Positions 4,790-63,787 of a stretch of DNA of 64,000 nucleotides are shown in pieces. The notes beneath the pieces were generated by a model that saw nothing but the letters and a program-made list of their open reading frames with translations, was not told where the DNA came from and made no database searches. Position 1 is the first letter of the stretch. Each line of letters begins with the position of its first letter. This stretch comes from a virus, in the IMG/VR virus record IMGVR_UViG_3300049893_000773, positions 23,663 through 87,662 of that record; one strand, written 5' to 3'. The translations under genes and the position numbers were made by a program.

Positions 4790-6868
4790 ATGTCGTCAAT
4801 TTTCGAAGAAGCGTTGCTTGAGGCAAAGAAACTGCGTCAAGTAGCTGAAGAGGATGCAAAAAACACCCTCATTCAAGAAATGACCCCTGTGATCCGCAAG
4901 ATGATCACGAACCAGCTTGCAGGCAAGTCCAGCGTTCTCTTCGAAGAGGAATTGCCTGCTGACCCAACAGCGTCCCCAGAAGCCCCTGTAGAGCCAGCAA
5001 TGGACCCTGCGGGCTCTGCCATGCCTGCGGCTGCACCTGTTCCTGTTGAGCCGCCTGCGAGCGGTGCTGCTGACGCACCTATTAAGGTGTCGGGCGCAGA
5101 AGTCATGAACATGCCAATGCCTGGACCAGATGGCAAGCTGGTAATTGACTTGGACGATCTTTTCGTTCCGGCAGAGCCAGGAGCGGAGACGCCTGATGAG
5201 GGTTCTGCTTCTGCCGAAGCTCCTCCAGCAATGCCCGGTGGGATGCCATCGCCAACTCCAGTGGATGTGAACCCAAGTGGTTCGGCACCAGAAGAAGCAC
5301 CAGCCCCAGAGGCTCCGGCTGCCCCTGTGGAGCCGGTTGCCACGGCAGGAGCCGAAGAGGTTCCGCCTCCCCCAGAGGAGCCAGCAATGGAGGAAACCTA
5401 CGAGCTTTTTGCCGAGGAGCTAAAGACCACGGCTGATCGCATTCACCAAGCCTATTCCTCCAAGGTTGGAGTTCCATCCCTTGTGAAGGAAGCTCTTCAG
5501 GAAAAACTCTATCAGCTTCTTGAATCCCTGGAATCGTTGAGCCGCAGAAACATGGTTTCTGAGCGTCTCACCCAAATCCAAGAGAGCCGTTTGGAGATTT
5601 TGCACCGCAAACTGAAAGAAGCAGTTGTCGCTAATACTTATCACAGAACAGAAGAAGGAACCGGAACTGACATGGCAAGCAAGTCGCTCAAGGAAATGGC
5701 TGCAAAGATGCTCGCAGAGAGCGCTTCGGTTGAGGGTGGTCCCGTCAAGTCTCCCGCTGATGTCCACAAGACAGAGGTGACGATGAAGGTTGACAACTCG
5801 CAGGAACAGGCTGCTGACAAGGCAGGAGCCCACGCTATGAAGGTTACGGAGCCTACTGTGACCCTCAAGACGGAATCGGCTGAAGCACAGGCTCAGGCTG
5901 CTCTTGCTGAGGAGCTTGCCGCTCTTGTTGCCGAGGGTTCTGGCGAGTCGCTTGCAGCCAAGGATGGGGAGCAGGATCTTGCTGGTGCTGCTTCGTCGAT
6001 TCCTGACAAGAAGGTTGGTCAAGTGGACCCAACGAAGAGCACGGCTGCAAGCAAGACCAATCCAGCTTCGCACGTTCAGGGTGTTGCAGAGTCGGTTGCT
6101 GTTTCGAGCAAGGCTCTTGCAGAGCAGACCAAGAAGATCAAGGCAGAAGCCTTGAAGAAGCAGATTGCCGCCCTTCAGGAGCAACTGAAGGAATGCGGGA
6201 TGCCAATGGAGGGCGATGCCCTTCCTGCGCCAGGAGCCCCAGCAATGGGTGTGATGGGCGAGGAAGATACGGTCATCAACTTCAACTTCGACCTCGCTGA
6301 TCTTCTGCCAGGACTTTCGGATCTTGGCGATGAAGACGAGATTGACATTGTGGGCGACGAGCCATCTGACGAGCCAAGCACCTTGGGCCCTGTGGGCGGT
6401 GCTGAACCAGAGGGTGACGACGCTGACGACCTTGAGCTTGCCGATGAGGACGAGCCAGAGGTTTCGCAACTTGCAGAGGGCAGGAAGTCCGGCAAGGGTG
6501 CGGGCAAGATTGTAGCGGAGAACAAGGATCTCCGTTCGCAACTTGCAACCGAGAAGCTGTTCAACGCAAAGATGGTTCATTTCCAGCCTTTCGTTAACAA
6601 TCCAAATCTGACCAAGCAACAGAAGCACAAAATTGCGGAGCACCTGGACAGAGGAACATCGCTTGAAGAAGTGAAGGCAATCTACAACCGCGTGAAGGTT
6701 GTGGTGGAGAACATGCAGAAGGTCTCTTCGAAGGCAGGAAGCTCTTCGAAGCCGGGTGTGACCCCTGCATCGACTCTCAGCGAGTCTGCCAACCCATACG
6801 AGGGATCGACCCTGGTGGAAGCAGAAAAGAATCGTTTGATGCAACTTGCTGGAATCAAGCGCAAGTGA
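4790..6868 (+). CDS. Prohead scaffold protein (T4 gp22-like)
   Basis: Internal scaffold on which the prohead shell forms and which the protease then degrades. The 692-residue protein starts with a helix (EEALLEAKKLRQVAEEDAK), followed by a long acidic Ala/Pro/Glu-rich region (about residues 55-200), further Ala/Lys/Glu helices, and a conserved C-terminal part near 573-650 (LFNAKMVHFQPFVNNPNLTK, then LDRGTSLEEVKAIYNRVK) that closely resembles the C-terminal block of gp22 scaffolds. It is much longer than T4 gp22 (269 residues), the extra length being low complexity. Several L-x-E sites fit protease digestion. GAGAGG precedes the ATG, and it sits immediately before the MCP as in T4. Confidence 0.85.
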   Translation: MSSIFEEALLEAKKLRQVAEEDAKNTLIQEMTPVIRKMITNQLAGKSSVLFEEELPADPTASPEAPVEPAMDPAGSAMPAAAPVPVEPPASGAADAPIKVSGAEVMNMPMPGPDGKLVIDLDDLFVPAEPGAETPDEGSASAEAPPAMPGGMPSPTPVDVNPSGSAPEEAPAPEAPAAPVEPVATAGAEEVPPPPEEPAMEETYELFAEELKTTADRIHQAYSSKVGVPSLVKEALQEKLYQLLESLESLSRRNMVSERLTQIQESRLEILHRKLKEAVVANTYHRTEEGTGTDMASKSLKEMAAKMLAESASVEGGPVKSPADVHKTEVTMKVDNSQEQAADKAGAHAMKVTEPTVTLKTESAEAQAQAALAEELAALVAEGSGESLAAKDGEQDLAGAASSIPDKKVGQVDPTKSTAASKTNPASHVQGVAESVAVSSKALAEQTKKIKAEALKKQIAALQEQLKECGMPMEGDALPAPGAPAMGVMGEEDTVINFNFDLADLLPGLSDLGDEDEIDIVGDEPSDEPSTLGPVGGAEPEGDDADDLELADEDEPEVSQLAEGRKSGKGAGKIVAENKDLRSQLATEKLFNAKMVHFQPFVNNPNLTKQQKHKIAEHLDRGTSLEEVKAIYNRVKVVVENMQKVSSKAGSSSKPGVTPASTLSESANPYEGSTLVEAEKNRLMQLAGIKRK

Positions 6869-6903: not shown

Positions 6904-8817
6904 ATGAAAACTTTCTCTCTTTCGCAATTGGCAGAAGGCGTAAACCGCCGCTCGCTTGGTGCTGATGCGCCAAGGCTTCTGTCCAAGTGGTCTGCAACCG
7001 GACTTCTTGAGGGACTTGGTGGTATGCAGAAGGAGACGCTCTCGCGCCTTCTGGAGAACCAAGTGGCCCAGCTCATTCAGGAGTCCAACGCCATCTCGAC
7101 GGGTGGTGCATCTCTGACCTCCTCGGGTCAGATTGCAGGCTTCTCGAACGTTGCCTTCCCTATCGTTCGTAGGGTCTTCGCTGGCCTCGTTGCCAACGAA
7201 GTGGTTTCGGTTCAGCCAATGAGCCTTCCTTCGGGACTGCTCTTCTACTTGGATTACACCTACGGCTCGAACGTTGGTGGTGATGCAGGTCTGAGCCTCT
7301 CGACCTCGGCAACGGCTGACACCTACAAGAGGGCAACCTCGGTGTACGGTCTTCCAACTGGAGCCTCGATCCGTTCGGGTGCAACTCCTGCTGGTGGCCA
7401 GTACGACCTCGTGGGTCACGGCTTCTCCAAGGTTCACAAGGGTGCTCTGAACATCACTGGCTCTACGGACTCGGTGGGTTACTGGCTCTCGGGCTCGACC
7501 TGGACAACGGGCACCTCGGCTGTCGTGGCAGCTTCGGCTGACTGGACCGGCTACAACGCCCGCTACGCTGGGTTCCGCCAGGACATCCAGAATGGTCTTG
7601 ACAACGGCGACTTCGACTACTGCTTCATGTTCATCTCGGCCTCCGAGTTGGCAGGCAAGATTTCGGGTCTCGATCTGAACGCTCTTGACCAAATCTCGAT
7701 CACTGGTTTCGGTTCGGCAGCAAACTCTGTGACCGCTTGGGGCGACAGCTTCCAGGGTGGTCTTGGAGTCCTGAACCTCCGCGCTCTGAACAAGCGTGGT
7801 GACTGGAACGCAGCCGCAGGTACCTTCACCCCAAACCCACTCGGCGGAAGCCACGTGTTGTTTGTGCTGAAGATCGCCAACGCAGGCACGGCTCCACAGC
7901 CAACCGGCGTGGCTTCGACCTACATCTCTGGCTCGGCAGCAATTGCAGACGCTCTTTCGGTTGGTTCGGAGGGCACGACCCTTACGGTCCCATCGTTCGA
8001 AACGGACTTCGCAGTTGACTCCTCGCCAAGGATTCCAGAGGTTGACATCAAGATCGAGGGTGTCTCGGTCACTGCAACGACCCGCAAGCTCCGTGCTCGT
8101 TGGTCGCCAGAGATGGCACAGGACCTTACGGCCTTCTACTCCATCGACGTGGAAGTGGAACTCACAAATATCCTGTCCGAGATGATCACGCTCGACATCG
8201 ACCGCGAAATCTTGAACGATCTCCTCACACAGGCCACAGCAGCAAACCTGTTCTGGTCGCGTGCTCCAGGACGCATCGTCAACAAGACCACTGGTCAGGA
8301 AGCTCTCCACAACAACGTCTTGGCCCCAGGCCCACAGTTCTTCGGAAATGTGCGTGAGTGGTACGAGACGCTCATGGAGACGATCACGGATGCAGCCAAC
8401 ACGATTCACAGGAAGACCCTCCGTGGTTCGGGTAACTTCATCGTCACGTCGCCAGACGTGGCAACGATCTTCGAGCACCTTGTGGCCTACAAGCCAGCAT
8501 ACAAGGTTGACTCCGATGGTCAGGTGAAGGAGTCGATGACGATTGGCGCAGAGGCAATCGGCACGCTCAACAACCGCTACGTGGTCTACAAGGACCCTTA
8601 CTTCCCACAGAACAAGATTCTGATTGGTTTGAAGGGCAACACCTTCCTGGAGTCGGGATACATCTACGCTCCATACGTTCCACTCATCTTGACTCCTGTG
8701 ATCTACGCACAGGAGGACTTCACTCCTCGCAAGGGTGTGATGACCCGCTACGGTAAGAAGATGGTCCGTGCTGACTTCTACGCCACTGTGACCGTGCTCG
8801 ACATGGCCCTCATCTGA
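6904..8817 (+). CDS. Major capsid protein precursor (T4 gp23-like)
   Basis: Builds the HK97-fold icosahedral shell. The N-terminal part has the gp23 signature LLSKWSATGLLEGLGG (residues 25-40) and LLENQVAQLIQE (49-60); the prohead protease should cut after Glu60. The block FPIVRRVFAGLVANEVVSVQ follows, as in gp23. Residues about 125-440 hold a Ser/Thr/Gly-rich segment with no clear T4 equivalent. The C-terminal part has FWSRAPGRIVNK (about 449) and ends TVLDMALI. At 637 residues it is longer than T4 gp23 (521). Codon use is very biased, as expected for the most abundant virion protein. Two hairpins and a strong terminator follow the stop. Two partial paralogs lie just downstream. Confidence 0.97.
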   Translation: MKTFSLSQLAEGVNRRSLGADAPRLLSKWSATGLLEGLGGMQKETLSRLLENQVAQLIQESNAISTGGASLTSSGQIAGFSNVAFPIVRRVFAGLVANEVVSVQPMSLPSGLLFYLDYTYGSNVGGDAGLSLSTSATADTYKRATSVYGLPTGASIRSGATPAGGQYDLVGHGFSKVHKGALNITGSTDSVGYWLSGSTWTTGTSAVVAASADWTGYNARYAGFRQDIQNGLDNGDFDYCFMFISASELAGKISGLDLNALDQISITGFGSAANSVTAWGDSFQGGLGVLNLRALNKRGDWNAAAGTFTPNPLGGSHVLFVLKIANAGTAPQPTGVASTYISGSAAIADALSVGSEGTTLTVPSFETDFAVDSSPRIPEVDIKIEGVSVTATTRKLRARWSPEMAQDLTAFYSIDVEVELTNILSEMITLDIDREILNDLLTQATAANLFWSRAPGRIVNKTTGQEALHNNVLAPGPQFFGNVREWYETLMETITDAANTIHRKTLRGSGNFIVTSPDVATIFEHLVAYKPAYKVDSDGQVKESMTIGAEAIGTLNNRYVVYKDPYFPQNKILIGLKGNTFLESGYIYAPYVPLILTPVIYAQEDFTPRKGVMTRYGKKMVRADFYATVTVLDMALI

Positions 8818-8929: not shown

Positions 8930-9730
8930 ATGGAAAAGAGAGTTAAAGGCCCAGACGGAAGAGAATATTGCACCACTGCTTGTTGTGGAGGCCCACCAGC
9001 CAAGCAGCCCGACCCAGAGGGGACAACGCTCACCGTCCCCTCTGAATCGCTCGAAGATAAGCTTCCGCCTTTGTTGGATATTCAGCTCTTGAAAGCAAAG
9101 ATGTTGACCCCTGGCATCTTTGGGAGAAAAGATGCGTCCACAGTAGCGCCTATGCAGCGTTCGTTTTTCTGGTCAAGGAGACCGGGGAACTACGTGGATA
9201 GACTTACGGGACAGTCTGCCATGAAGAAGGTGGTCCAACGGGTAACCGTTTCCGAGATGGAAGTCCCAGGGTCTAATCCAAAGACCTTCGTCTTGGTCCA
9301 GCGAGAGGAGGAACGAGAGGTTCCAATCGACTCCTTTGAGGGAACAGTCAAGGATTGGTATGAGAAGCTGGGGGAGGAAGTCCTTCAGTGTGCCAACGAA
9401 ATTTTCCGCAAGTGCTTGGTGCCTGCCAATCTTGTTGAGATGTCCCCGGATCTCGTGAATCTATTCGAGGCCATTGGATTCGATCCCGGCAAATGGAGGC
9501 AGGTCGGTGCAAATGAGTTGCTTGCAACCAATAAGCTTTTTGGCAGGTATGCCGTTGTACGGTGTAACAACCTACCGGCAAACGAGTTGCACGTCAAGCT
9601 GATCTCGGAGATTTTCTACACTTTCGGCAATTTGACCGGCCCTGTCCCGGAAATCGACATGGAATTGCTCACCAAACCCGCGACGTTGGCTGATTACAAG
9701 GTCACTGTGTTGGACATGCCTCTCCTGTAG
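8930..9730 (+). CDS. Partial paralog 1 of the major capsid protein (C-terminal domain)
   Basis: This 266-residue protein aligns with the C-terminal half of the MCP encoded just upstream. Shared blocks in the same order are GTTLTVPS (residues 31-38; the MCP copy is near 357), FFWSRRPGNYVDRLTGQ (79-95; MCP FWSRAPGRIVNKTTGQ), VKDWYEKLGEEVL (MCP VREWYETLMETI), a SPD block (MSPDLVNLFE; MCP TSPDVATIFE) and the C-terminal TVLDMPLL (MCP TVLDMALI). The MCP N-terminal arm and protease site are absent. The first 25 residues contain Cys14, Cys18 and Cys19 and are unrelated to MCP. T4 also has a gp23 paralog (gp24, vertex), but that one is nearly full length. A minor capsid, vertex or cement role is possible. 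Homology is confident; function is unknown. Confidence 0.8.
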   Translation: MEKRVKGPDGREYCTTACCGGPPAKQPDPEGTTLTVPSESLEDKLPPLLDIQLLKAKMLTPGIFGRKDASTVAPMQRSFFWSRRPGNYVDRLTGQSAMKKVVQRVTVSEMEVPGSNPKTFVLVQREEEREVPIDSFEGTVKDWYEKLGEEVLQCANEIFRKCLVPANLVEMSPDLVNLFEAIGFDPGKWRQVGANELLATNKLFGRYAVVRCNNLPANELHVKLISEIFYTFGNLTGPVPEIDMELLTKPATLADYKVTVLDMPLL

Positions 9731-13268: not shown

Positions 13269-13931
13269 ATGGCACGGCTGTTTATCACACAACGAGAGAT
13301 CGACTATTTTAACGATATTGCCAAGGAAGTCATCAAGGACATCATTGGGCAGGCGATCATCTATTGGCCGGTGTCTACCCTGAAGACCAAGGTTCACCCC
13401 GTCTACAATGAGGCTGTGAAGAAAAACTTCGAGAACCCGATCAAGGTTGATGCCTTGGTTGGTCAGCCTCAATGGGAGACGAAGATGACGCAATTTGGAC
13501 CTGAGCAGCAAAACACCTTGGAGGTCTTCCTCCAGGCAAGGGATTTGGCTCAGAAGGGTCTAGAGATTGCGGAGGGTGACTTTTTCACCTATGGTGACAA
13601 CGCCTACGAAATCGTATCCAGCGTCAACATGAATAACTACTTTGGTCAGGTGGAGCACGATGTGGCTTTCAAGGTGATTGGAAAGCTGGCACGTCCTGGG
13701 GAGTTCAACCCGCAGAAGTTCTTCAAGCCTGACGCTGAGACGATCATTCCTACTCCAACCCCTTTCGAGCAACAGAGGGGTATTTCTGAAAACACGGAAG
13801 GGCCAACAGGAGATATTCGTGACGTTAAGGAACGTCTTGGCGACGACCTTCCAGCACCCGCACTTGGAGAAGGGCCAAGGCGAGTGGATGTTGATTCGAC
13901 CCTGAGAGCAAATAAGCTGTACGATGAATGA
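13269..13931 (+). CDS. Neck protein (T4 gp14-like)
   Basis: Probable second neck protein, joining head and tail. Key features are the N-terminal helix (FNDIAKEVIKDIIGQAIIYW), the strands after TKVHPVYNEA, and the block GDFFTYGDNAYEIVS followed by FKVIGKLARPGEF, a pattern of gp14-type and related head-closure proteins (y-G-d-x-x-Y-e-I). 220 residues, close to T4 gp14 (256). GGAGG lies five bases before the ATG. Its last eight bases overlap the next gene. The C-terminal 50 residues are likely disordered. Confidence 0.75.
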   Translation: MARLFITQREIDYFNDIAKEVIKDIIGQAIIYWPVSTLKTKVHPVYNEAVKKNFENPIKVDALVGQPQWETKMTQFGPEQQNTLEVFLQARDLAQKGLEIAEGDFFTYGDNAYEIVSSVNMNNYFGQVEHDVAFKVIGKLARPGEFNPQKFFKPDAETIIPTPTPFEQQRGISENTEGPTGDIRDVKERLGDDLPAPALGEGPRRVDVDSTLRANKLYDE

Positions 13932-14622
13932 ACTAAAAGCCGCCTTTCAGTTTTGGCTCCTTGAGAGTAATGACCTTGAGGAAGCCAAGTTCAATCCCGA
14001 CGTTTTGGACAAAATGGACGGGCCTGAGTCCATGCTTTCAGCCGCTCGGGACAGACTTCCAGCACTTGGAGAGGGTTCATCTCGTGCTGCCTTTTTGCTG
14101 GACAGCAAGAGGGTGCTCAAGGTTGCCATCAACAACAAGGGGTTGGCCCAGAACAAGGCCGAGTATGAGCTTTCACAGCATCCTGGGGTGGCTCCTTTGG
14201 TGACAAGGATCTTCCGGGTTGGCAAGGACTACTCGTGGCTCGTTTCCGAACTTGTTCGTCCGCTCAGGACCAACAAGGAGTTTGAGCAGCTTACTCAAGT
14301 GCCTTGGAGCTTCTTCATCTCCTTCCTGAGTTTTTACGAGGGCAATGGAGACATTGGAAAATCCTTCAATCTCGCCGTGAAGTCTCAAATTGATCAGGAC
14401 AGGCGCAAGAAGAGCCCCTTCCCAGGCATCTCTGTGAGAGGGATCGAGCACCTTCCATTCATTGGGCGGTTCATGACCGCTCTTGGGAACCGCCCCGATT
14501 TGATTCCAGCAGACCTGATGAAGCTGGATCACTGGGGGAAGACACCGGATCAGCGTGTGGTCCTGTTGGATTCTGGCTATACCGAAGAAGTGTGGTCCTC
14601 GCACTATTCGGATGAGTCATAA
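13924..14622 (+). CDS. Kinase-fold protein, paralog A
   Basis: One of three related proteins in this window (others at 26382 and 46866). Kinase-like features are a glycine loop LGEGSSRAAF (48-57), an invariant-lysine strand RVLKVA with Lys66, a following Asn/Glu helix (AQNKAEYEL), a hinge-like strand WLVSELV (105-111), a catalytic-loop-like DLMKLDHWG (Asp197, Asp202) and a DFG-like DSG (216-218). The usual HRD and Asn are replaced by a D-x4-D-x-W-G pattern, so it is not a standard protein kinase and activity is unproven. Residues 1-15 form a helix ending WLLES, an L-x-E sequence suited to the prohead protease. The start overlaps the neck gene, so it is made with virion proteins. Confidence 0.65.
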   Translation: MNELKAAFQFWLLESNDLEEAKFNPDVLDKMDGPESMLSAARDRLPALGEGSSRAAFLLDSKRVLKVAINNKGLAQNKAEYELSQHPGVAPLVTRIFRVGKDYSWLVSELVRPLRTNKEFEQLTQVPWSFFISFLSFYEGNGDIGKSFNLAVKSQIDQDRRKKSPFPGISVRGIEHLPFIGRFMTALGNRPDLIPADLMKLDHWGKTPDQRVVLLDSGYTEEVWSSHYSDES

Positions 14623-26127: not shown

Positions 26128-26349
26128 TTGGGATATTACTTCGGAATGACAAGCTGGAACGACTACTATCGTTTCCCGGTTGCCTACCGAAGGTGGTTGA
26201 TCAAGAGGATCAACGAGGAGATCCAGAAAGCAGCAGAGGCTCAAAACGGTCAAACCAGCAAGGGAGCACACGACAACACGCCCGATGTGAGAGCCCTTAC
26301 GGGCAAAACAAGGCAAAATGTTCCCGCGAAGCTCCGCAGGTTCACTTGA
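26128..26349 (+). CDS. Short hub-chaperone extension, probably read by frameshift (T4 gp51-like position)
   Basis: The open frame runs from before the seven-T run (26070-26076) to 26349. It can be read from a TTG at 26128 or ATG at 26146, but the in-frame sequence upstream of both, from 26077 (GLTPEDRTKVILEPYF), also looks protein-like and continues directly into LLGYYFGMTSWNDYYRFP. This supports production as the C-terminal part of a frameshifted hub chaperone rather than as a separate protein. The segment SWNDYYRFPVAYRRWLIKRI resembles short proteins next to gp26 homologs in other T4-like phages (from memory, unchecked). The C-terminal 40 residues are polar and disordered. Confidence 0.6.
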   Translation: MGYYFGMTSWNDYYRFPVAYRRWLIKRINEEIQKAAEAQNGQTSKGAHDNTPDVRALTGKTRQNVPAKLRRFT

Positions 26350-26363
26350 GACATGGGATTCCC

Positions 26364-26369
26364 TATTTA
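26364..26369 (+). promoter_or_regulatory. TANTTA late-promoter-like motif (TATTTA)
   Basis: TATTTAC, then GAGGA, then the ATG of kinase-like paralog B; motif end to ATG is 12 bases. Confidence 0.5.
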
Positions 26370-26381
26370 CTGAGGAATCCA

Positions 26382-27089
26382 ATGGCATCATCTCCCCTTC
26401 ACGAATACATCAAGGCGGCTATTGAGCTCTATCTTCTTGAAGACTTCGATGCCTCAACGAAGCCTGTAAGAAAGCCAGGAACCACTGCACCTCCCGCCCA
26501 ACAGCAGACCTTCAACTTCAACGAGTTTCGTGCTCTGAAGGACCTGGATTCCGTTCTTGAGTATGTCAAGAAGACCTTGGGACGTTCTCTCCTTGGAGAG
26601 GGACAAGGACGGCTTGTCTACAGCCTTGGCAATGGCCGGGTGTTGAAGGTTGCCAAGGATCAAGGGGGAGTTGGCCAGAACCAGAGCGAGGCGAATGTGT
26701 GCGCCAGTTCGGCTGATGTTGTGACCTTGTTCCCCAAGGTTTTCGAGAGCAGCCCTTCGCACTTTTGGCTTGTCACGGAAGAAGCCAAGCCAATGACCGA
26801 GGAAGCCTTCAAGACCCTGACAGGACTTCCCTGGAGGATGTTCTGGTCCGCTCTCAAGGGAGCCTTTGCTGGGAAAGCCTCGAATGTCACCCAAGCAGAC
26901 CAACAGAACTACGCCCAGGCTTCGGCAAATCAGTTTTTCGCCAGAGTCGTCAAGGCAATTCGAGATTGCAGGTATGAGCCGGGTGATATTGCCAAGCTGG
27001 ATTCCTGGGGAATTGTTGGAGGCAAGCCTGTAATCATCGACTCCGGGTTTACGGAAGCTGTGAACAAGGCTTACTATTCCAACGGCTAG
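26382..27089 (+). CDS. Kinase-fold protein, paralog B
   Basis: 235 residues, related to the proteins at 13924 and 46866. Kinase-like elements are the glycine loop LLGEGQGRLVY (70-80), the lysine strand GRVLKVA with Lys89, an Asn/Glu helix (GQNQSEANV), the hinge-like strand FWLVTEEA, a catalytic-loop-like DIAKLDSWG and a DFG-like IIDSGFTEA near the C-terminus. As in paralog A the standard HRD motif is absent. The N-terminal helix (LHEYIKAAIELYLLED) ends with L-L-E, a possible protease site. An open frame runs further upstream to 26193, but it overlaps the previous gene and lacks the family pattern, so ATG 26382 was chosen. Confidence 0.65.
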   Translation: MASSPLHEYIKAAIELYLLEDFDASTKPVRKPGTTAPPAQQQTFNFNEFRALKDLDSVLEYVKKTLGRSLLGEGQGRLVYSLGNGRVLKVAKDQGGVGQNQSEANVCASSADVVTLFPKVFESSPSHFWLVTEEAKPMTEEAFKTLTGLPWRMFWSALKGAFAGKASNVTQADQQNYAQASANQFFARVVKAIRDCRYEPGDIAKLDSWGIVGGKPVIIDSGFTEAVNKAYYSNG

Positions 27090-46865: not shown

Positions 46866-47738
46866 TCAAAAGGGGATGTCGTCCTCGTCTGAGGCTGGGG
46901 GCCTTGCTGGGGGACGAGGGGCTGTAGCTGGCTTTCGTGGTGGAGGGGGAATCACGTTGCCGTACTTGTCGTATTCCACCTCTTGCTCATGACCGTAGTC
47001 GTCCCTGTACGATCTTTCCAGGTCATTGACTTGCTGGTAGATGGACGGGTTGTACATGCTGTAGGCATCGCTCCCGAAGCCGTAGTCAATGACGACCACC
47101 CTACCATCTGGCAAGACTCCGAGTTGGTCAGCACTTGCTAGATCCAGGCCATTGCTTTCCAGGTGAGGGATGGCGAGGCAAATCTTTGCGAAGGAATCGG
47201 TGAAGTTGAGGGCTTGCTCGTATCTCTTGATTTGGGACAAGTTTCGCTCGGAGGGGTTCAGGGCTTTGAAGTAGCTGATTTGCTTCTGGATCGAGGACTT
47301 CAGGTCCTCGATGGTTTTTGATCGAAAGCAAGCGCCACTGAAAAGCTCGTGAGCCGTTTTGGCATCGACTCCAAAGAGCCTTTCAAGCTCCTCTGCTCCT
47401 TTGAGGGATTCAGCTTTCTCGGCCACGATCCATTCAAAGTGCTCATCATGCGGCTCATCAATTGCCGCCAGGACTAGCTTTACATCCCCTGGGACCTTGT
47501 GATAGAGTTGGTACTCGGTTTCGTTCTGGACGGAACCCTTGTCGCTCATGGCTACCTTGAGCACACGTCCATCACCAAGGTCGAAGACAGCCCGTGAACT
47601 ACCACTGCCAAGCTCAACCAGAGTTTGCTCCACATACTCCAAACGTTGTGGTCGGCCAACGTACTTCTTCAATTCATCGAAAGAGAAGGACTCTTCGGCC
47701 TCTTGGAGGAAATCCAGGAATTCCTTTAGTGTGTGCAT
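46866..47738 (-). CDS. Kinase-fold protein, paralog C
   Basis: 290 residues from the ATG at 47738; a longer frame to 47768 exists, but 47738 lies five bases behind TATTTA on the minus strand. Kinase-like features are the glycine loop LGSGSSRAVF (43-52), the lysine strand GRVLKVA with Lys61, an Asn/Glu helix (VQNETEYQL), the hinge-like WIVAEKA, a catalytic-loop-like GLDLASADQLGV and a DFG-like VVVIDYGFG. This copy is closest to a real kinase because the IDYG motif resembles known phosphotransferases. The N-terminal helix (LKEFLDFLQEAEE) carries L-Q-E. A Pro-rich, acidic tail ends it. It is the only minus-strand gene in the replication block. Confidence 0.7.
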   Translation of the reverse strand: MHTLKEFLDFLQEAEESFSFDELKKYVGRPQRLEYVEQTLVELGSGSSRAVFDLGDGRVLKVAMSDKGSVQNETEYQLYHKVPGDVKLVLAAIDEPHDEHFEWIVAEKAESLKGAEELERLFGVDAKTAHELFSGACFRSKTIEDLKSSIQKQISYFKALNPSERNLSQIKRYEQALNFTDSFAKICLAIPHLESNGLDLASADQLGVLPDGRVVVIDYGFGSDAYSMYNPSIYQQVNDLERSYRDDYGHEQEVEYDKYGNVIPPPPRKPATAPRPPARPPASDEDDIPF

Positions 47739-47743
47739 AAGCC

Positions 47744-47749
47744 TAAATA
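47744..47749 (-). promoter_or_regulatory. TANTTA motif five bases before the kinase-like paralog C start
   Basis: On the minus strand TATTTA-GGCTT-ATG. No ribosome-binding sequence fits, so leaderless translation is implied. Confidence 0.55.
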
Positions 47750-47766
47750 GAAGACCACGAACAGCC

Positions 47767-48030
47767 ATGGATATTGAGCACGAACTTCGTTTTCTTTGCC
47801 CTGAAGTGAAATTTAGCCGTTTTAGCGATGAGCACTTTCAGGCAGAGATCATCTGTGAGGCAAATGGCAAGGAAGCATCTCTTCATTTGCTGGAAAACAA
47901 GGTAGTGGTTACAGGTCCACTTGGCACGGATCGCCTTCCAGCGGAAATTTGTCGGATCGACGATCTTAACCATGTTGTTGATGAGGTTAGAAAGCGACTT
48001 TCCCTTGTGGAGTCAACGGTGAACCAATGA
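47767..48030 (+). CDS. Small protein of unknown function before the 5'-3' exonuclease
   Basis: 87 residues, starting at ATG 47767 (MDIEHELRFLCPEVKFS). Two strands with a helix at the C-terminus (DDLNHVVDEVRKRLSLV). Not recognised. Its stop overlaps the exonuclease start (ATGA). It starts 28 bases from the divergent kinase-like gene, so the short region between them carries both starts. Confidence 0.6.
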   Translation: MDIEHELRFLCPEVKFSRFSDEHFQAEIICEANGKEASLHLLENKVVVTGPLGTDRLPAEICRIDDLNHVVDEVRKRLSLVESTVNQ

Positions 48031-58511: not shown

Positions 58512-59482
58512 GACAATATCAAGAAATGCTTCGCCACATCCTTGAGAATGGCGAATACATCGGGAATGGTAGGACCAAGGAAGGCTACTACAGCGTCTTT
58601 GGCTACCAGAACCGCTACAACCTCCGTGATGGTTTCCCATTGGTTACCACAAAGAAGGTTCCCTTCCGCTTGATTGCCTCGGAGTTGCTCTGGTTCCTTA
58701 GCGGAAGCAGCAACGTCAAGGACCTCCAAGCCCAGAATAACCACATTTGGGATGAGTGGGCCACCAAGGAGCAATGCGCCAAGTTTGGGCGCGAAGAAGG
58801 CGACCTTGGACCTGTCTATGGTCCTTTGTGGAGGAAGTGGGAAGCTGTGTCCAGGTGCACACCTCCTGCTTGGGAGCCGCTGTTCAACGCAAAAGGAGAA
58901 CAGGTTTCGGCAATGCCTCCAAGAGCTCCATACATGAATCCCGACAACCCACAATTGGAAAGAGAATGGAATACGCTGTGGAGCATGGGATTGTCTGTGA
59001 CCAAAATTGACCAAATTGCTCGTGTGATTGAGCGAATCAAGACGAATCCGTCTTGCCGCAGGTTGATTGTCTCCGGTTGGAACCCTGCAACCTGCGACAA
59101 GGTTGCTCTCCCACCTTGCCATACCCTGTTCCAGTTCCGGGTATCTCATGGAGGAACGAGGTTGAACTGCCAGCTTTACCAGAGGAGCGCTGATGCCTTC
59201 CTGGGAGTTCCGTTCAACATCGCTTCCTACGCCCTCTTGACCCACATGGTCGCCCAGGTGACGGGTTTGGAGGTTGGTGAGTTCATCCACACCTTCGGGG
59301 ACCTGCACGTCTACGAGAATCACGTGGATCAGGTGAAGCTTCAGCTTTCCCGGCCCCCAATGACCCTTCCAACCCTCTGGTTGAACCCGGAAGTCAAGAA
59401 GATCGACGACTTCAAGATGGAAGACATTCGCCTGGATGGGTACGAGGCTCACCCGGCAATCAAGGGAGATGTAGCGGTATGA
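58508..59482 (+). CDS. thyA: Thymidylate synthase (ThyA type)
   Basis: Makes dTMP from dUMP with methylene-tetrahydrofolate, giving dihydrofolate that DHFR (63287) recycles. The 324 residues have the N-terminal [11 protein letters not shown] region, [20 protein letters not shown], the [11 protein letters not shown] block, the catalytic Cys in [10 protein letters not shown], the [20 protein letters not shown] block and the C-terminal [20 protein letters not shown]. It is about 60 residues longer than E. coli ThyA (264), mainly through an insertion after the GPVYGPLW block. All catalytic motifs are intact. Confidence 0.97.
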
Positions 59483-59637
59483 AGGACGTGAATCTGCACC
59501 TATGGGCCAAGGAAGCCATCAAGGGTGGGGTGATTGAGCGGCTTGAAAAGGCTATTGCTTCCACTTCTGATCCCTTCATGAAAGCCCTTCACCTTGAACA
59601 AATCAAACAAATCAGGCAGCTAGCCTCAGCCTCGTGA
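59479..59637 (+). CDS. 52-residue helical protein after thymidylate synthase
   Basis: ATG overlaps the ThyA stop (ATGA). Helical, with [20 protein letters not shown] and [15 protein letters not shown]. No family recognised. Overlapping stops and starts on both sides (the next frame has a GTG overlapping its stop) support it as a real gene. Confidence 0.5.
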
Positions 59638-59648
59638 GTAGAGTTGAC

Positions 59649-60008
59649 ATGATCACAGAAAATTGCATCAAAAAGTGGAGAACGACTGGCCTTCTTGAAG
59701 GACTTTCAGGAGAACCTGAAAGTCGGTGTGCTGAGGTGCTGGAGAACGCAGCAGTTGAAATCATCAAACAAGGGCATGAGGGTCGTACGGTGGAGCTCCT
59801 ATTCCCTGTAATTCGACGGATGGCAGGGGAAGGGTTTTACCCTTCCGATGCTGCTTGGTTGGTTGAGGATTTCCAAAATTGGATGAAGACCCGTGGTTCC
59901 CACATTGACTTCTGCTTCACAGTAGAAGCTGAAGTTGAGTTCTGCGCCCAGTATTCAACAGAATGCCCAGAGAGGTTCAGCAGGAGAAACAATGTCGCTA
60001 GCAATTGA
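59649..60008 (+). CDS. Small protein resembling the N-terminal region of the major capsid protein
   Basis: 119 residues from ATG 59649 (a GTG at 59634 is an alternative). Residues 5-40 align without gaps to MCP residues 25-60: here KKWRTTGLLEGLSG and VLENAAVEIIKQ, in MCP SKWSATGLLEGLGG and LLENQVAQLIQE. Then FPVIRRMAG matches MCP FPIVRRVFAG. The MCP protease site L-I-Q-E is I-I-K-Q here, so it should not be cut. The C-terminal part is unrelated (helix AAWLVEDFQNWMKTRG). A relative lies at 60735. An assembly regulator that competes with or mimics the capsid arm is possible; the function is unknown. Confidence 0.65.
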   Translation: MITENCIKKWRTTGLLEGLSGEPESRCAEVLENAAVEIIKQGHEGRTVELLFPVIRRMAGEGFYPSDAAWLVEDFQNWMKTRGSHIDFCFTVEAEVEFCAQYSTECPERFSRRNNVASN

Positions 60009-60327
60009 AGACGGAAACTTTCACACGGTCAAGGTTGGGGAGCACTGGAGAATCCAACCTGTTCGCAGCCCCTACATGTGTCCGCTCCTGGAGTGCAACG
60101 GAGAAAAGTGCGATCCGGCGAGGCATATGTGGATGGCTGTGGACCCGGCACATTTGGTGAATGGCAAGCCAAACGATGATTGCTGCTACTTTGACGTGGA
60201 AATCATGAAGGTAACGGATCAAGTCATCGAGTGCAAGACCTTGCCCGAGCCCGATGGAAGCTACCTCGTGTTTGAGGTCTTGAACTCGGACGCCATTGTC
60301 CGGTTCTATCGCAAGGACAGCGTATGA
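59992..60327 (+). CDS. 111-residue protein of unknown function
   Basis: ATG 59992 with AGGAG upstream, overlapping the previous gene by 17 bases. Beta-rich, with a Cys/His-containing segment (PLLECNGEKCDPARHMW) and CCYFDVEIMK, possibly metal-binding. No family recognised. Its stop overlaps the next start (ATGA). Confidence 0.55.
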   Translation: MSLAIEDGNFHTVKVGEHWRIQPVRSPYMCPLLECNGEKCDPARHMWMAVDPAHLVNGKPNDDCCYFDVEIMKVTDQVIECKTLPEPDGSYLVFEVLNSDAIVRFYRKDSV

Positions 60328-60671
60328 GTTCAACTGCCTGGGCAACATTGTTCTACGGGGCAACCTTCACCACGGCAGAGCTCGAAGCCTTCTTTGGCCT
60401 TGAGCTTGGTGCTGACAACTGGGAGGAGATTGATGAGCGGCTTGAGGACCTTGGTTTCGAGAGGGTTGTTCGGGACTCCTATGCTGATGACTCCGATAGG
60501 GTCATTGTTTCAGCCAAAACGATCGAGGTAAGCCGTTACCAGCATTTCAGGCCAGTATCGCCAGAAGACCTCCATGTTGACATCGAGGTTGGGCAGAAGT
60601 ACCAGGATTTCGTTTTCGCGACGGGCTTGAAGAAGTCCGTTGGTTGGTTCCTTTGTGCAGGAGACGTGTGA
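60324..60671 (+). CDS. 115-residue protein of unknown function
   Basis: Acidic alpha/beta protein (TTAELEAFFGLELGADNWEE, then DRVIVSAKTIEVSRY). Overlaps the previous stop (ATGA). Not recognised. Part of the run of small genes between ThyA and the amidotransferase. Confidence 0.5.
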   Translation: MSSTAWATLFYGATFTTAELEAFFGLELGADNWEEIDERLEDLGFERVVRDSYADDSDRVIVSAKTIEVSRYQHFRPVSPEDLHVDIEVGQKYQDFVFATGLKKSVGWFLCAGDV

Positions 60672-60742
60672 AAGAGATGATTGTAGACGCCAGAGCAATT
60701 GGGATCGAGCAAGCAAAGCGACTTCTTACGGAAAATGAGTAA
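60668..60742 (+). CDS. Possible 24-residue micro-protein
   Basis: A GTG overlapping the previous stop (or ATG 60677) opens a short frame ending ATGAGTAA, which overlaps the start of the next gene. Overlaps at both ends are the only evidence. Confidence 0.25.
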   Translation: MKEMIVDARAIGIEQAKRLLTENE

Positions 60743-61118
60743 TCCACTTGACCAGTTGAACGCCAGGAGACTTTTCATCTATTGGAAGAATACTGGTTTG
60801 CTGGATAACTCTTCCGATCAAGCTCGCTTGGCTTCGTATCTTCAGGAGATGAATAGCCATCTCAAGGCGGTGGCGCCAGAAACGCCAACGGATTTTGAAG
60901 CAGCCGAGATTGTATTGCCGATTATCATTCGATTGACGGATGATGGCATTTGGTTGCCGGTCCCTGTGCTCTACAAAATGCTAGTTGACTGGATTGACAA
61001 CGAGTTCTATAGTTTGGAACTTGATCCCCACATGATCGAGCTTTGGAATCGTGATAAGATCGAAGGCTTTCTTGGCTACATAAGGGAAAAGTATCCCAAA
61101 GGAAAAGATGGAGCATGA
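60735..61118 (+). CDS. Second small protein resembling the capsid N-terminal region
   Basis: 127 residues from ATG 60735. RRLFIYWKNTGLLDNSSDQA aligns with the MCP KWSATGLLEGL region and with the protein at 59649; the following helix (LASYLQEMNSHLKAV) takes the place of the MCP LLENQVAQLIQE helix, and IVLPIIIRLTDDG matches FPIVRRVF. More diverged than the 59649 protein, but the same order and spacing. The C-terminal half (LYKMLVDWIDNEFYSLELD) resembles that of the 59649 protein in hydrophobic pattern. Function unknown. Confidence 0.55.
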   Translation: MSNPLDQLNARRLFIYWKNTGLLDNSSDQARLASYLQEMNSHLKAVAPETPTDFEAAEIVLPIIIRLTDDGIWLPVPVLYKMLVDWIDNEFYSLELDPHMIELWNRDKIEGFLGYIREKYPKGKDGA

Positions 61119-61338
61119 CTTTTTCCCTTTCATTGCTTACGAGAAATGCCGCATTTGCGGGGTGATACGCTTTGAAGTCAAGGCTCTTGTACCCCCAACT
61201 TGGGGTCTGAAACCTGGAGAGCGTCCATTCACCTCGGAGATGAGGGTAGAACGAATTTGTTTCACTTACAGGCAAGAGGGGGAAACGTGGACGACGAAGG
61301 AGCCAGAATGCAAGACTTACCATCCCAAGACGGACTGA
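61108..61338 (+). CDS. 76-residue protein with a CxxC pair
   Basis: Starts MEHDFFPFIAYEKCRICG; further Cys residues at the C-terminus (ERICFTY, ECKTYH) could complete a zinc site. Overlaps the preceding stop by 11 bases. Not recognised. Confidence 0.5.
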   Translation: MEHDFFPFIAYEKCRICGVIRFEVKALVPPTWGLKPGERPFTSEMRVERICFTYRQEGETWTTKEPECKTYHPKTD

Positions 61339-61646
61339 GAAGGCTCTGCATGGCCATTCAAAACGGTCCTGAGCGGTGGCAGAAATCTCACGATCGTTGG
61401 CCCACTCTCGACGACGATCTTGCCGATGGGCATGTCGGGAGCATGAATTGGCTCCTGACGACGTTCCTCCAAACGTTTGAAAATGCCAGCACTTCCGACC
61501 AAAGACTTGCTATCCTGGCAATCAAGGATGCGGTGCGATGGCTGGACGCGCATAGGAAAACCAACGCCCTGTTGCTTGAGGTGTACGATCTTGGCAACTT
61601 CATTTCTTGGTGGCACAACGAGAATGTGGGATTTACGTTCAGATAA
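61308..61646 (+). CDS. 112-residue helical protein of unknown function
   Basis: ATG 61308 with AAGGAG upstream, overlapping the previous gene by 31 bases. Contains GPERWQKSHDRWPTLDDDLA and helices ILAIKDAVRWLDAHRKTNAL. The frame is open further upstream, but only this start has a ribosome-binding sequence. Stop and next start overlap (TAATG). Confidence 0.55.
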   Translation: MQDLPSQDGLRRLCMAIQNGPERWQKSHDRWPTLDDDLADGHVGSMNWLLTTFLQTFENASTSDQRLAILAIKDAVRWLDAHRKTNALLLEVYDLGNFISWWHNENVGFTFR

Positions 61647-63131: not shown

Positions 63132-63181
63132 GTCTTGTTCAGGCTGAGCCCCTCACTCCTGGTGCAGGAAATCGTAAAAGT

Positions 63182-63220
63182 GCAACCCATGAGCCGTCCC
63201 TCTGGGTTGCCTTTCTATTT
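63182..63220 (+). terminator. Rho-independent terminator after the amidotransferase gene
   Basis: GCAACCCA (63182-63189) and TGGGTTGC (63203-63210) pair exactly around a 13-base loop, followed by CTTTCTATTT. The rest of the 155-base gap to the DHFR start shows nothing definite. Confidence 0.75.
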
Positions 63221-63286
63221 GGACTTTCAATACGGCGAGAAGAAGAAGAAGAGAAATCCCTTTCGGTGGACCTGTTTAAGGGTACG

Positions 63287-63787
63287 ATGCAAAGACAGGA
63301 AGTAAGCTTGATTGTGGCGGTGGACGATGGAGGGGTGATCGGTCACAATGGGTCTTTGCCAGATTGGCATGCCCCTGGAGACCTGAAGAGGTTCAAGGAG
63401 CTTACCATTGGCAAAAGTGTGATCATGGGTCGCAGGACCTATGAATCCATTGGGAAACCATTGCCAAACAGGTGTAATATCGTTCTGAGCCGCACCTTGC
63501 TCGAAGGAACCGGTATTCACATTGTCCGTTCCTGGGATGAGGCTTTGAAGCTGGCTGCTTTGGTAGCCCAGGGATCGGAAATCATGGTGATTGGCGGTGC
63601 TGACATCTACGCCCAAGCCCTGCCAATTGCCTCTCGTGTGTACTTGACCAGAGTGCACGGCAGGCATCCGGGGGATGCTTTCTTTCCACCTCTTGATCCC
63701 AAGAAATGGGTGGTAGTGGAACAAGTGGCCCTTCCAACCCATTCGTACCTGATTTACGAGCGCAGGGTTAACAACACCTCCTCTTGA
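63287..63787 (+). CDS. folA: Dihydrofolate reductase
   Basis: Regenerates tetrahydrofolate consumed by thymidylate synthase. The 166 residues have SLIVAVDDGGVIGHNGSLPD, WHAPGDLKRFKELT, VIMGRRTYESIG, IVLSRT and the IGGADIYAQALP block, complete for the family; a Lys/Trp block with DAFFPPLD ends it. ATG 63287 is preferred over an in-frame GTG at 63266 because the protein then begins just before the first strand. It lies in the metabolic half of the window with ThyA, RNR and dUTPase. Confidence 0.95.
   Translation: MQRQEVSLIVAVDDGGVIGHNGSLPDWHAPGDLKRFKELTIGKSVIMGRRTYESIGKPLPNRCNIVLSRTLLEGTGIHIVRSWDEALKLAALVAQGSEIMVIGGADIYAQALPIASRVYLTRVHGRHPGDAFFPPLDPKKWVVVEQVALPTHSYLIYERRVNNTSS

Follow-up and report, generated by a model that had tools for sequence, protein, structure and literature searches.

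Phage scaffolds are encoded either as stand-alone proteins or as delta domains fused to the capsid protein, a comparison for which HK97 and lambda serve as the examples. In phages with a gp23-type major capsid protein (MCP), the partner of the removable N-terminal region is hard to study because that region is cut off and lost in maturation. The T4 internal proteins IPI-IPIII are non-essential and are trimmed by gp21. An N-terminal capsid-targeting sequence is common to IPII and IPIII; IPI enters the host by injection, inhibits GmrSD and protects against it (PMC9958956). The T4 vertex protein gp24 is a paralogue of gp23 (PMC9958956). Within T4 gp23 itself, the Gol region has been reported as the most conserved part, and it binds EF-Tu and activates the Lit protease (PMC3014915).

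We examined partial copies of the capsid gene in a window of 64,000 nucleotides, which is part of an 87.7 kb record of a T4-like virus of bacteria. The nearest relative found was record G029 (seen as L083, L172 and L257). The arm of the window MCP comprises residues 22-61, with the expected cleavage after LIQE. The following features of the window were considered:

4790-6868: candidate scaffold/core gene, named from position and make-up only
6904-8817, plus strand: gp23-type MCP, 637 aa (Pfam Gp23 E=4e-75; phrog_138 E=6e-70)
8930..9730, plus strand: C1, partial MCP copy (C-domain, MCP ~449-638), 266 aa, with its own N-terminal ~75 aa
9763..10416, plus strand: C2, partial MCP copy (C-domain, MCP ~444-638), 217 aa
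58508..59482, plus strand: thyA, left boundary of the accessory block, function assigned by eye from the sequence
59479..61600, plus strand: accessory block of small ORFs (59479, N1, 59992, 60324, N2 and 61108) between thyA and the 61607 gene
59649..60008, plus strand: N1, arm-only protein, 119 aa (ATG 59649, stop 60008; alternative start GTG 59634)
60735..61118, plus strand: N2, probable second arm-only protein, 127 aa
62265..63131, plus strand: glutamine-amidotransferase-like gene, a conserved neighbour (Pfam GATase_6 E=3e-5, just under the curated cut-off; 66% identical in G029)
about 63132-63305, plus strand: G1, ORF of ~56 aa between the glutamine-amidotransferase-like gene and DHFR, start uncertain (TTG 63135)

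In an all-against-all comparison of the whole 87.7 kb contig, the MCP was found to be the sole gene for which several short partial copies lie elsewhere on the coding strand (C2, C1, G1 and N1). Among the other repeats of the contig are long paralogues, for instance a pair of large proteins at 15.9 and 19.1 kb. The initial annotation had concluded that the capsid protein was split into separately encoded pieces. A split capsid gene was rejected, as the 637-aa MCP is intact and conserved, being 94% identical in the nearest relative, and the pieces are extra to it. The C-domain copies that had been described at 8.9-10.4 kb are real. N1, C1, C2 and G1, and probably N2, are additional partial copies (partial paralogues) of the MCP. 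Three mutually related proteins were also observed in the window, at 13924-14622, 26193-27089 and 46866-47768 (-), with E values from 6e-20 to 1e-14.

Residues 7-58 of N1 match MCP residues 26-91, covering the arm and the FPxxRR motif, and no relative of N1 residues 60-119 was detected. As had been claimed from first inspection, the arm alignment is gap-free, with MCP 26-61 corresponding to N1 7-42 and 14/36 residues identical (K-W, TGLLEGL, G, LEN and I). Past the arm, the N1/MCP alignment continues with a 14-residue gap, the residues being present in the MCP only, and then with FPIVRR / FPVIRR. None of 5000 shuffles of N1 reached the N1-MCP score (84, versus 55 for the best shuffle), and BLASTP against the window MCP gave 37 bits (E=5e-8 for the single comparison). 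An HMM of MCP N-termini built without N1 retrieved it from 22,506 ORFs at E=4e-7, no further ORF outside the MCPs scoring better than 0.57, and a broader MCP-only profile retrieved it at E=2e-11 (per-record E-value, own contig). A tblastn search with N1 across 50,697 phage records (E<=10) reached six records only, all of them at MCP N-termini or at the MCP position. Iterative searches, which the initial annotation had suggested as a check, converged on MCP N-termini instead of placing the proteins in some other family. These sequence comparisons confirmed that N1 is related to the N-terminal arm of the MCP.

The FPxxRR motif was assessed using the MCP of a second phage, G101, which has a shorter linker. 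Here the alignment with N1 ran on as far as FPVIRR and needed a gap of only 4 residues (E=5e-10 for this single comparison), and because shorter-linker MCPs align in this manner, FPxxRR belongs to the N1-MCP match. An origin of N1 from a foreign MCP was considered, as other MCPs outscored the phage's own, and was not concluded, since the gap penalty that the longer linker incurs accounts for much of the difference in score. Neither N1 nor N2 matched Pfam or PHROG models, both being too short for the HK97-fold capsid domain (Pfam Gp23). An MCP-arm profile run over 50 records yielded no N1-like proteins, and neither exact-peptide scans of viral contigs nor a scan of genome contigs matched N1 or N2. 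It was noted that the reading frame of N1 has the best codon-usage score of the six, and that this score is low compared to most neighbours.

For N2, a weaker match with the same motif order had been described. The order is indeed kept, with W..TGLLD and then LPIIIR as in the MCP, and the relation itself is suggestive: 30 of 5000 shuffles reached the N2 score against the MCP and 1 of 5000 against N1, and N2 scored E=0.08 when left out of the combined family and MCP profile. Codon usage supports coding, the N2 frame being the best of six. We regard N2 as probably related to the MCP arm.

The accessory block containing N1 and N2 is absent at the equivalent place in the nearest relatives, G029 and G030, in which conserved genes follow almost directly after thyA. 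The 61607 gene on its right flank is conserved in G029, though weakly. N1 is an intact ORF within a tightly packed, overlapping row of genes, and it lies among non-structural genes. The T4-type late promoter TATAAATA was found nowhere in the window, so that the expression class is not readable from the promoter. In the nearest relative, a GIY-YIG-like ORF (L083:9276-9980, domain assigned by eye) was observed directly upstream of thyA; it is a possible mobile element beside the variable region that follows thyA.

A pattern in which the distance between the arm motif and FPxxRR is shorter than in the MCPs of this clade led to the G101 phage. It is represented by two records, G101 (87 kb) and G102 (69 kb), apparently of one phage that is distant from the window phage, and it carries its own gp23-type MCP of 559 aa (Pfam Gp23 E=1e-75). 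At least four small ORFs of the arm-only kind proposed here were found in it:

L285:5055-5411, opposite strand to the MCP: Aa, 118 aa, 49% identical over 51 aa to the arm of its own MCP
L286:1808-2266, opposite strand to the MCP: Ab, 152 aa
L287:1315-1692, opposite strand to the MCP: Ac, 125 aa, in tandem with Ad, the pair adjoining a dUTPase-like ORF
L287:959-1315, opposite strand to the MCP: Ad, 118 aa, in tandem with Ac

The broad MCP-only profile retrieved Aa at 5e-10 and Ab at 2e-6 (per-record E-values), and in Ad a 20-residue match was found at 0.04. The tandem proteins Ac and Ad are 36% identical to each other. The strength of the links differs among these proteins: N1, Aa and Ab each match MCPs directly, Ac and Ad connect to the group by way of Ab and of one another, and N2 by way of N1; the matches of N2, Ac and Ad to the MCP itself are weak. 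A profile of the six small proteins without the MCP (A8), run over 50 viral records, retrieved only those six proteins and MCP N-termini; as the profile includes N2, this reverse search is not independent for N2. The same profile matched nothing in records without a detected gp23-type MCP, nor in G045 and G048, which have a divergent MCP. In a search of 62k ORFs, the matches listed comprised only MCP N-termini and the arm-only family, and the small-protein profile matched the MCP profile with a probability of 97.8% (E=7e-13). Searches with reversed sequences gave no matches. The C-terminal halves of the small proteins did not retrieve each other across the two phages; a shared C-terminal domain is thus unsupported across phages, and sharing is demonstrated for the arm.

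From these comparisons, we propose a family of small proteins (~118-152 aa) that resemble the MCP arm, and no other family, in their N-terminal half, with N1, Aa and Ab as firm members at the sequence level. Arm-only genes were thereby shown to recur in a second, distant gp23-type phage, which points to accessory capsid-mimic proteins as a little-known class. Among ~80 gp23-type records, arm-only proteins were found in at least 2 distinct phages, a lower bound as the records are mostly incomplete, and tblastn over the 50,697 phage records found no cultured gp23-type phage with an arm-only gene.

Several other matches were assessed and rejected as further cases. An Acinetobacter terminase match with Ac (E=0.2) was taken as chance. 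In L179, L202, L230 and Klebsiella phage kp20 (L173), apparent small MCP-like ORFs were judged from their sequences to be ordinary MCPs interrupted in the record by a frameshift or stop, and the match in Stenotrophomonas phage RAS14 is a 462-aa MCP-like ORF and so not a small protein. As a side observation, two tandem MCP-like genes were seen (L263:908-1030, record G103:6633-8734), the first of which has an in-frame TAG shortly after the arm motif. In record G107 (127933-128145), matches to both the arm end and the Gol-like segment were seen in an ORF of 629 aa that lies 3 kb away from the MCP and is possibly a second capsid or vertex protein.

Of 148 aligned MCPs, 99% have a glutamate just before the expected prohead-protease cut, whereas N1 has Gln there. 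In Aa of the G101 phage, I-G-E is found at the place aligned with the MCP cleavage site, so that the Glu is kept. The earlier claim that neither window protein keeps the L-I-Q-E site accordingly holds for N1, and N2 is not reliably alignable at that place. Predicted structures had also been suggested as a check. AlphaFold placed helices at residues 4-11, 23-40 and 48-59 of N1 (two sequences, mean pLDDT 60) and at 22-30, 40-67 and 87-97 of MCP residues 1-140 (20 sequences, mean pLDDT 49). In these low-confidence models, the predicted helices of N1 and the MCP appear in equal order, namely a W helix, a LEN helix and an FPxxRR helix; this predicted order agrees with the sequence match and is too weak to stand alone. 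A Foldseek search with the N1 model, which is too poor for this purpose, returned no match.

The C-domain copies and G1 present a different pattern of divergence. C1, located at the same place in G029, is 43% identical to its orthologue there, C2 52% and G1 37%, versus 94% for the MCP, and pS is high in both C1 (0.74) and C2 (0.66). This divergence far above that of the MCP could reflect conflict with host factors; given the high pS, replacement by recombination is equally possible. Further C-domain copies were found in G018 and G008. In two phages other than the window phage, MCP C-domain copies were observed at L258:1609-2337 (-) and at L259:1537-2046 and 2033-2617, the two copies in L259 lying in a row just after an HNH-like ORF (HNH assigned by eye).

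G1, which the initial annotation did not mention, matches MCP residues 88-122, a Gol-like segment, with 54% identity over 35 aa, and this segment overlaps the Gol region of T4 gp23. An MCP-only HMM gave E=3e-10 for G1 and the phrog_138 major head protein model E=3e-5; a further profile, A3, contained the G1 copies of the window and L083 and the L016 piece, so that their scores with A3 are not independent and the MCP-only values are given here. A homologue of G1 lies in place in the nearest relative (L083:12671-12841), again between the amidotransferase-like gene and DHFR. For the G1 core, pN was 0.28 and pS 0.69. The expression of G1 is uncertain because codon usage does not favour its frame. 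As leads only, Gol-like small ORFs were observed at L016:5422-5628, L027:13472-13822 and L169:1565-1966 (-), with E values of 1e-7, 5e-4 and 1e-3 from the MCP-only profile; in two of them the Gol-like stretch is the C-terminal tail of a 117- or 134-aa ORF. The family phrog_12830 (128 positions, named major head protein) weakly matches both G1 and the MCP near the C-terminal end of the family; it may include other MCP N-terminal pieces.

The functions proposed in the initial annotation (regulation, competition and interference with other phages) are possible. We tentatively place slightly ahead of them, as a reading that may well prove wrong, the possibility that the arm-only accessory proteins are arm-addressed internal head proteins. 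N1, and probably N2, are arm-only relatives of the MCP in which ~55 residues correspond to the removable N-terminal (delta) region and the first mature N-arm helix; the other half is short, mostly helical and poorly conserved. We infer that the arm would keep binding the prohead partner of the MCP arm, the scaffold core, and that it would act as an address tag bringing small, accessory, multi-copy proteins into the prohead core. Such proteins would be packaged as internal head proteins, like T4 IPI-IPIII, and delivered to the next host, and N1, with Gln for the cleavage Glu, would not be trimmed as the MCP is. The T4 internal protein genes lie outside the head operon, as do the arm-only genes here. 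Together with the size of 118-152 aa, the presence of several per phage, the accessory status and the conserved N-terminal part with a variable rest, this location appears to fit packaging as internal proteins best.

The missing cleavage Glu in N1 speaks against that mode, whereas the T4 internal proteins are trimmed by gp21, and it would fit a lasting competitor about as well. On this alternative, which we consider unlikely, free arms, if present at inhibitory levels, would occupy the sites of the MCP arm on the scaffold or the prohead protease and would slow or tune head assembly, be it the phage's own or that of a relative infecting the same cell, with the non-cleavable arm (Glu to Gln) serving as a lasting inhibitor. 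The conserved arm with its lost Glu in N1, the location among non-structural genes and the patchy distribution are all consistent with a competitor; however, Aa of the G101 phage still has a Glu where it is expected, and a single regulator would hardly need the four copies seen in that phage. Less probable than competition is that the arm mimics, G1 and C1/C2 each present one MCP surface and thereby draw a sensor or a hijacking satellite off the real MCP. Host systems sensing gp23, in the form of Lit acting through the Gol region (PMC3014915), or sensing another MCP (PMC9712102) are known, which was counted in favour of decoys. The status of the MCP as the one gene of the contig with several short partial copies and the low identity of C1, C2 and G1 to their G029 orthologues (43, 52 and 37%, versus 94% for the MCP) also argue for decoys, but given the high pS of C1 and C2, recombinational replacement is as good an explanation of the divergence as selection, and several neighbours of G1 in the thyA region are equally divergent. 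Moreover, the Gol peptide activates Lit, so that an unchanged copy of it would harm the phage. We know of no sensor of the delta region, the part copied by N1, which also counts against a decoy role. Less likely again is the broader proposal that a set of separate MCP-surface mimics (the arm in N1 and N2, the Gol-like segment in G1 and the C-domain in C1 and C2) has been retained and has diversified to serve as decoys for MCP-recognising factors of the host or of satellites.

The remaining explanations rank below these. A copied piece of the MCP gene may simply persist without function, which we consider doubtful: N1 and N2 are without an orthologue against which purifying selection could be gauged, and the codon score of N1 is low compared to most neighbours, but the ORF of N1 is intact, its frame is the best of six and the genes around it are tightly packed and overlap. 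The match also persists at the protein level after long divergence, and such genes are found again in a distant phage, where there are four of them, including a tandem pair at 36% identity. Least likely, and already disfavoured, is a small family of helical hairpins whose likeness to the MCP arm arose by chance or convergence, without a common origin. The shared stretch is short (~55 residues with one gap), the C-terminal halves are unrelated to the MCP, and N2, Ac and Ad match the MCP weakly; against this, MCP-only profiles gave E values from 4e-7 to 2e-11, reversed sequences gave no matches, Aa is 49% identical to the arm of its own MCP, and the reverse search with the six small proteins was clean.

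Natural stand-alone versions of the arm, present in two distant phages, would offer a means of probing the interaction between the arm and its partner. They would also serve as a ready test of the capsid arm as an address tag, an assembly brake or a decoy. The arm, C-domain and Gol-like copies together suggest that fragments of the capsid gene have repeatedly been kept as separate genes.

Compared to T4 IPI, IPII and IPIII, the arm-only proteins are likewise small, accessory and several per phage, with a conserved N-terminal part and a variable rest. They differ in that the N-terminal part is the MCP arm itself instead of a separate signal of ~10 aa and in that N1 is without the cleavage site. 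Unlike T4 gp24, which is a full-length capsid protein, N1 (119 aa), C1 (266 aa), C2 (217 aa) and G1 are fragments. The T4 gp23 Gol region, which is involved with Lit and EF-Tu, is for the most part reproduced in G1 (N1 does not include it), but G1 is a separate ORF outside the capsid protein, and the likeness is one of sequence overlap only. With the delta region of T4 gp23-type MCPs (PF07068 Gp23, phrog_138), N1 shares the order of K-W-x-x-TGLLEGL, (L)EN and FPxxRR and the predicted helix order; in contrast to these proteins, it is 119 aa long, is without the HK97-fold capsid domain and the cleavage Glu, and has another C-terminal half. N1 further resembles the stand-alone scaffolding proteins of the HK97 and lambda comparison as a delta-like region encoded on its own, whereas here a delta region is still part of the MCP, and the phage also has a candidate scaffold/core gene of its own (4790-6868).
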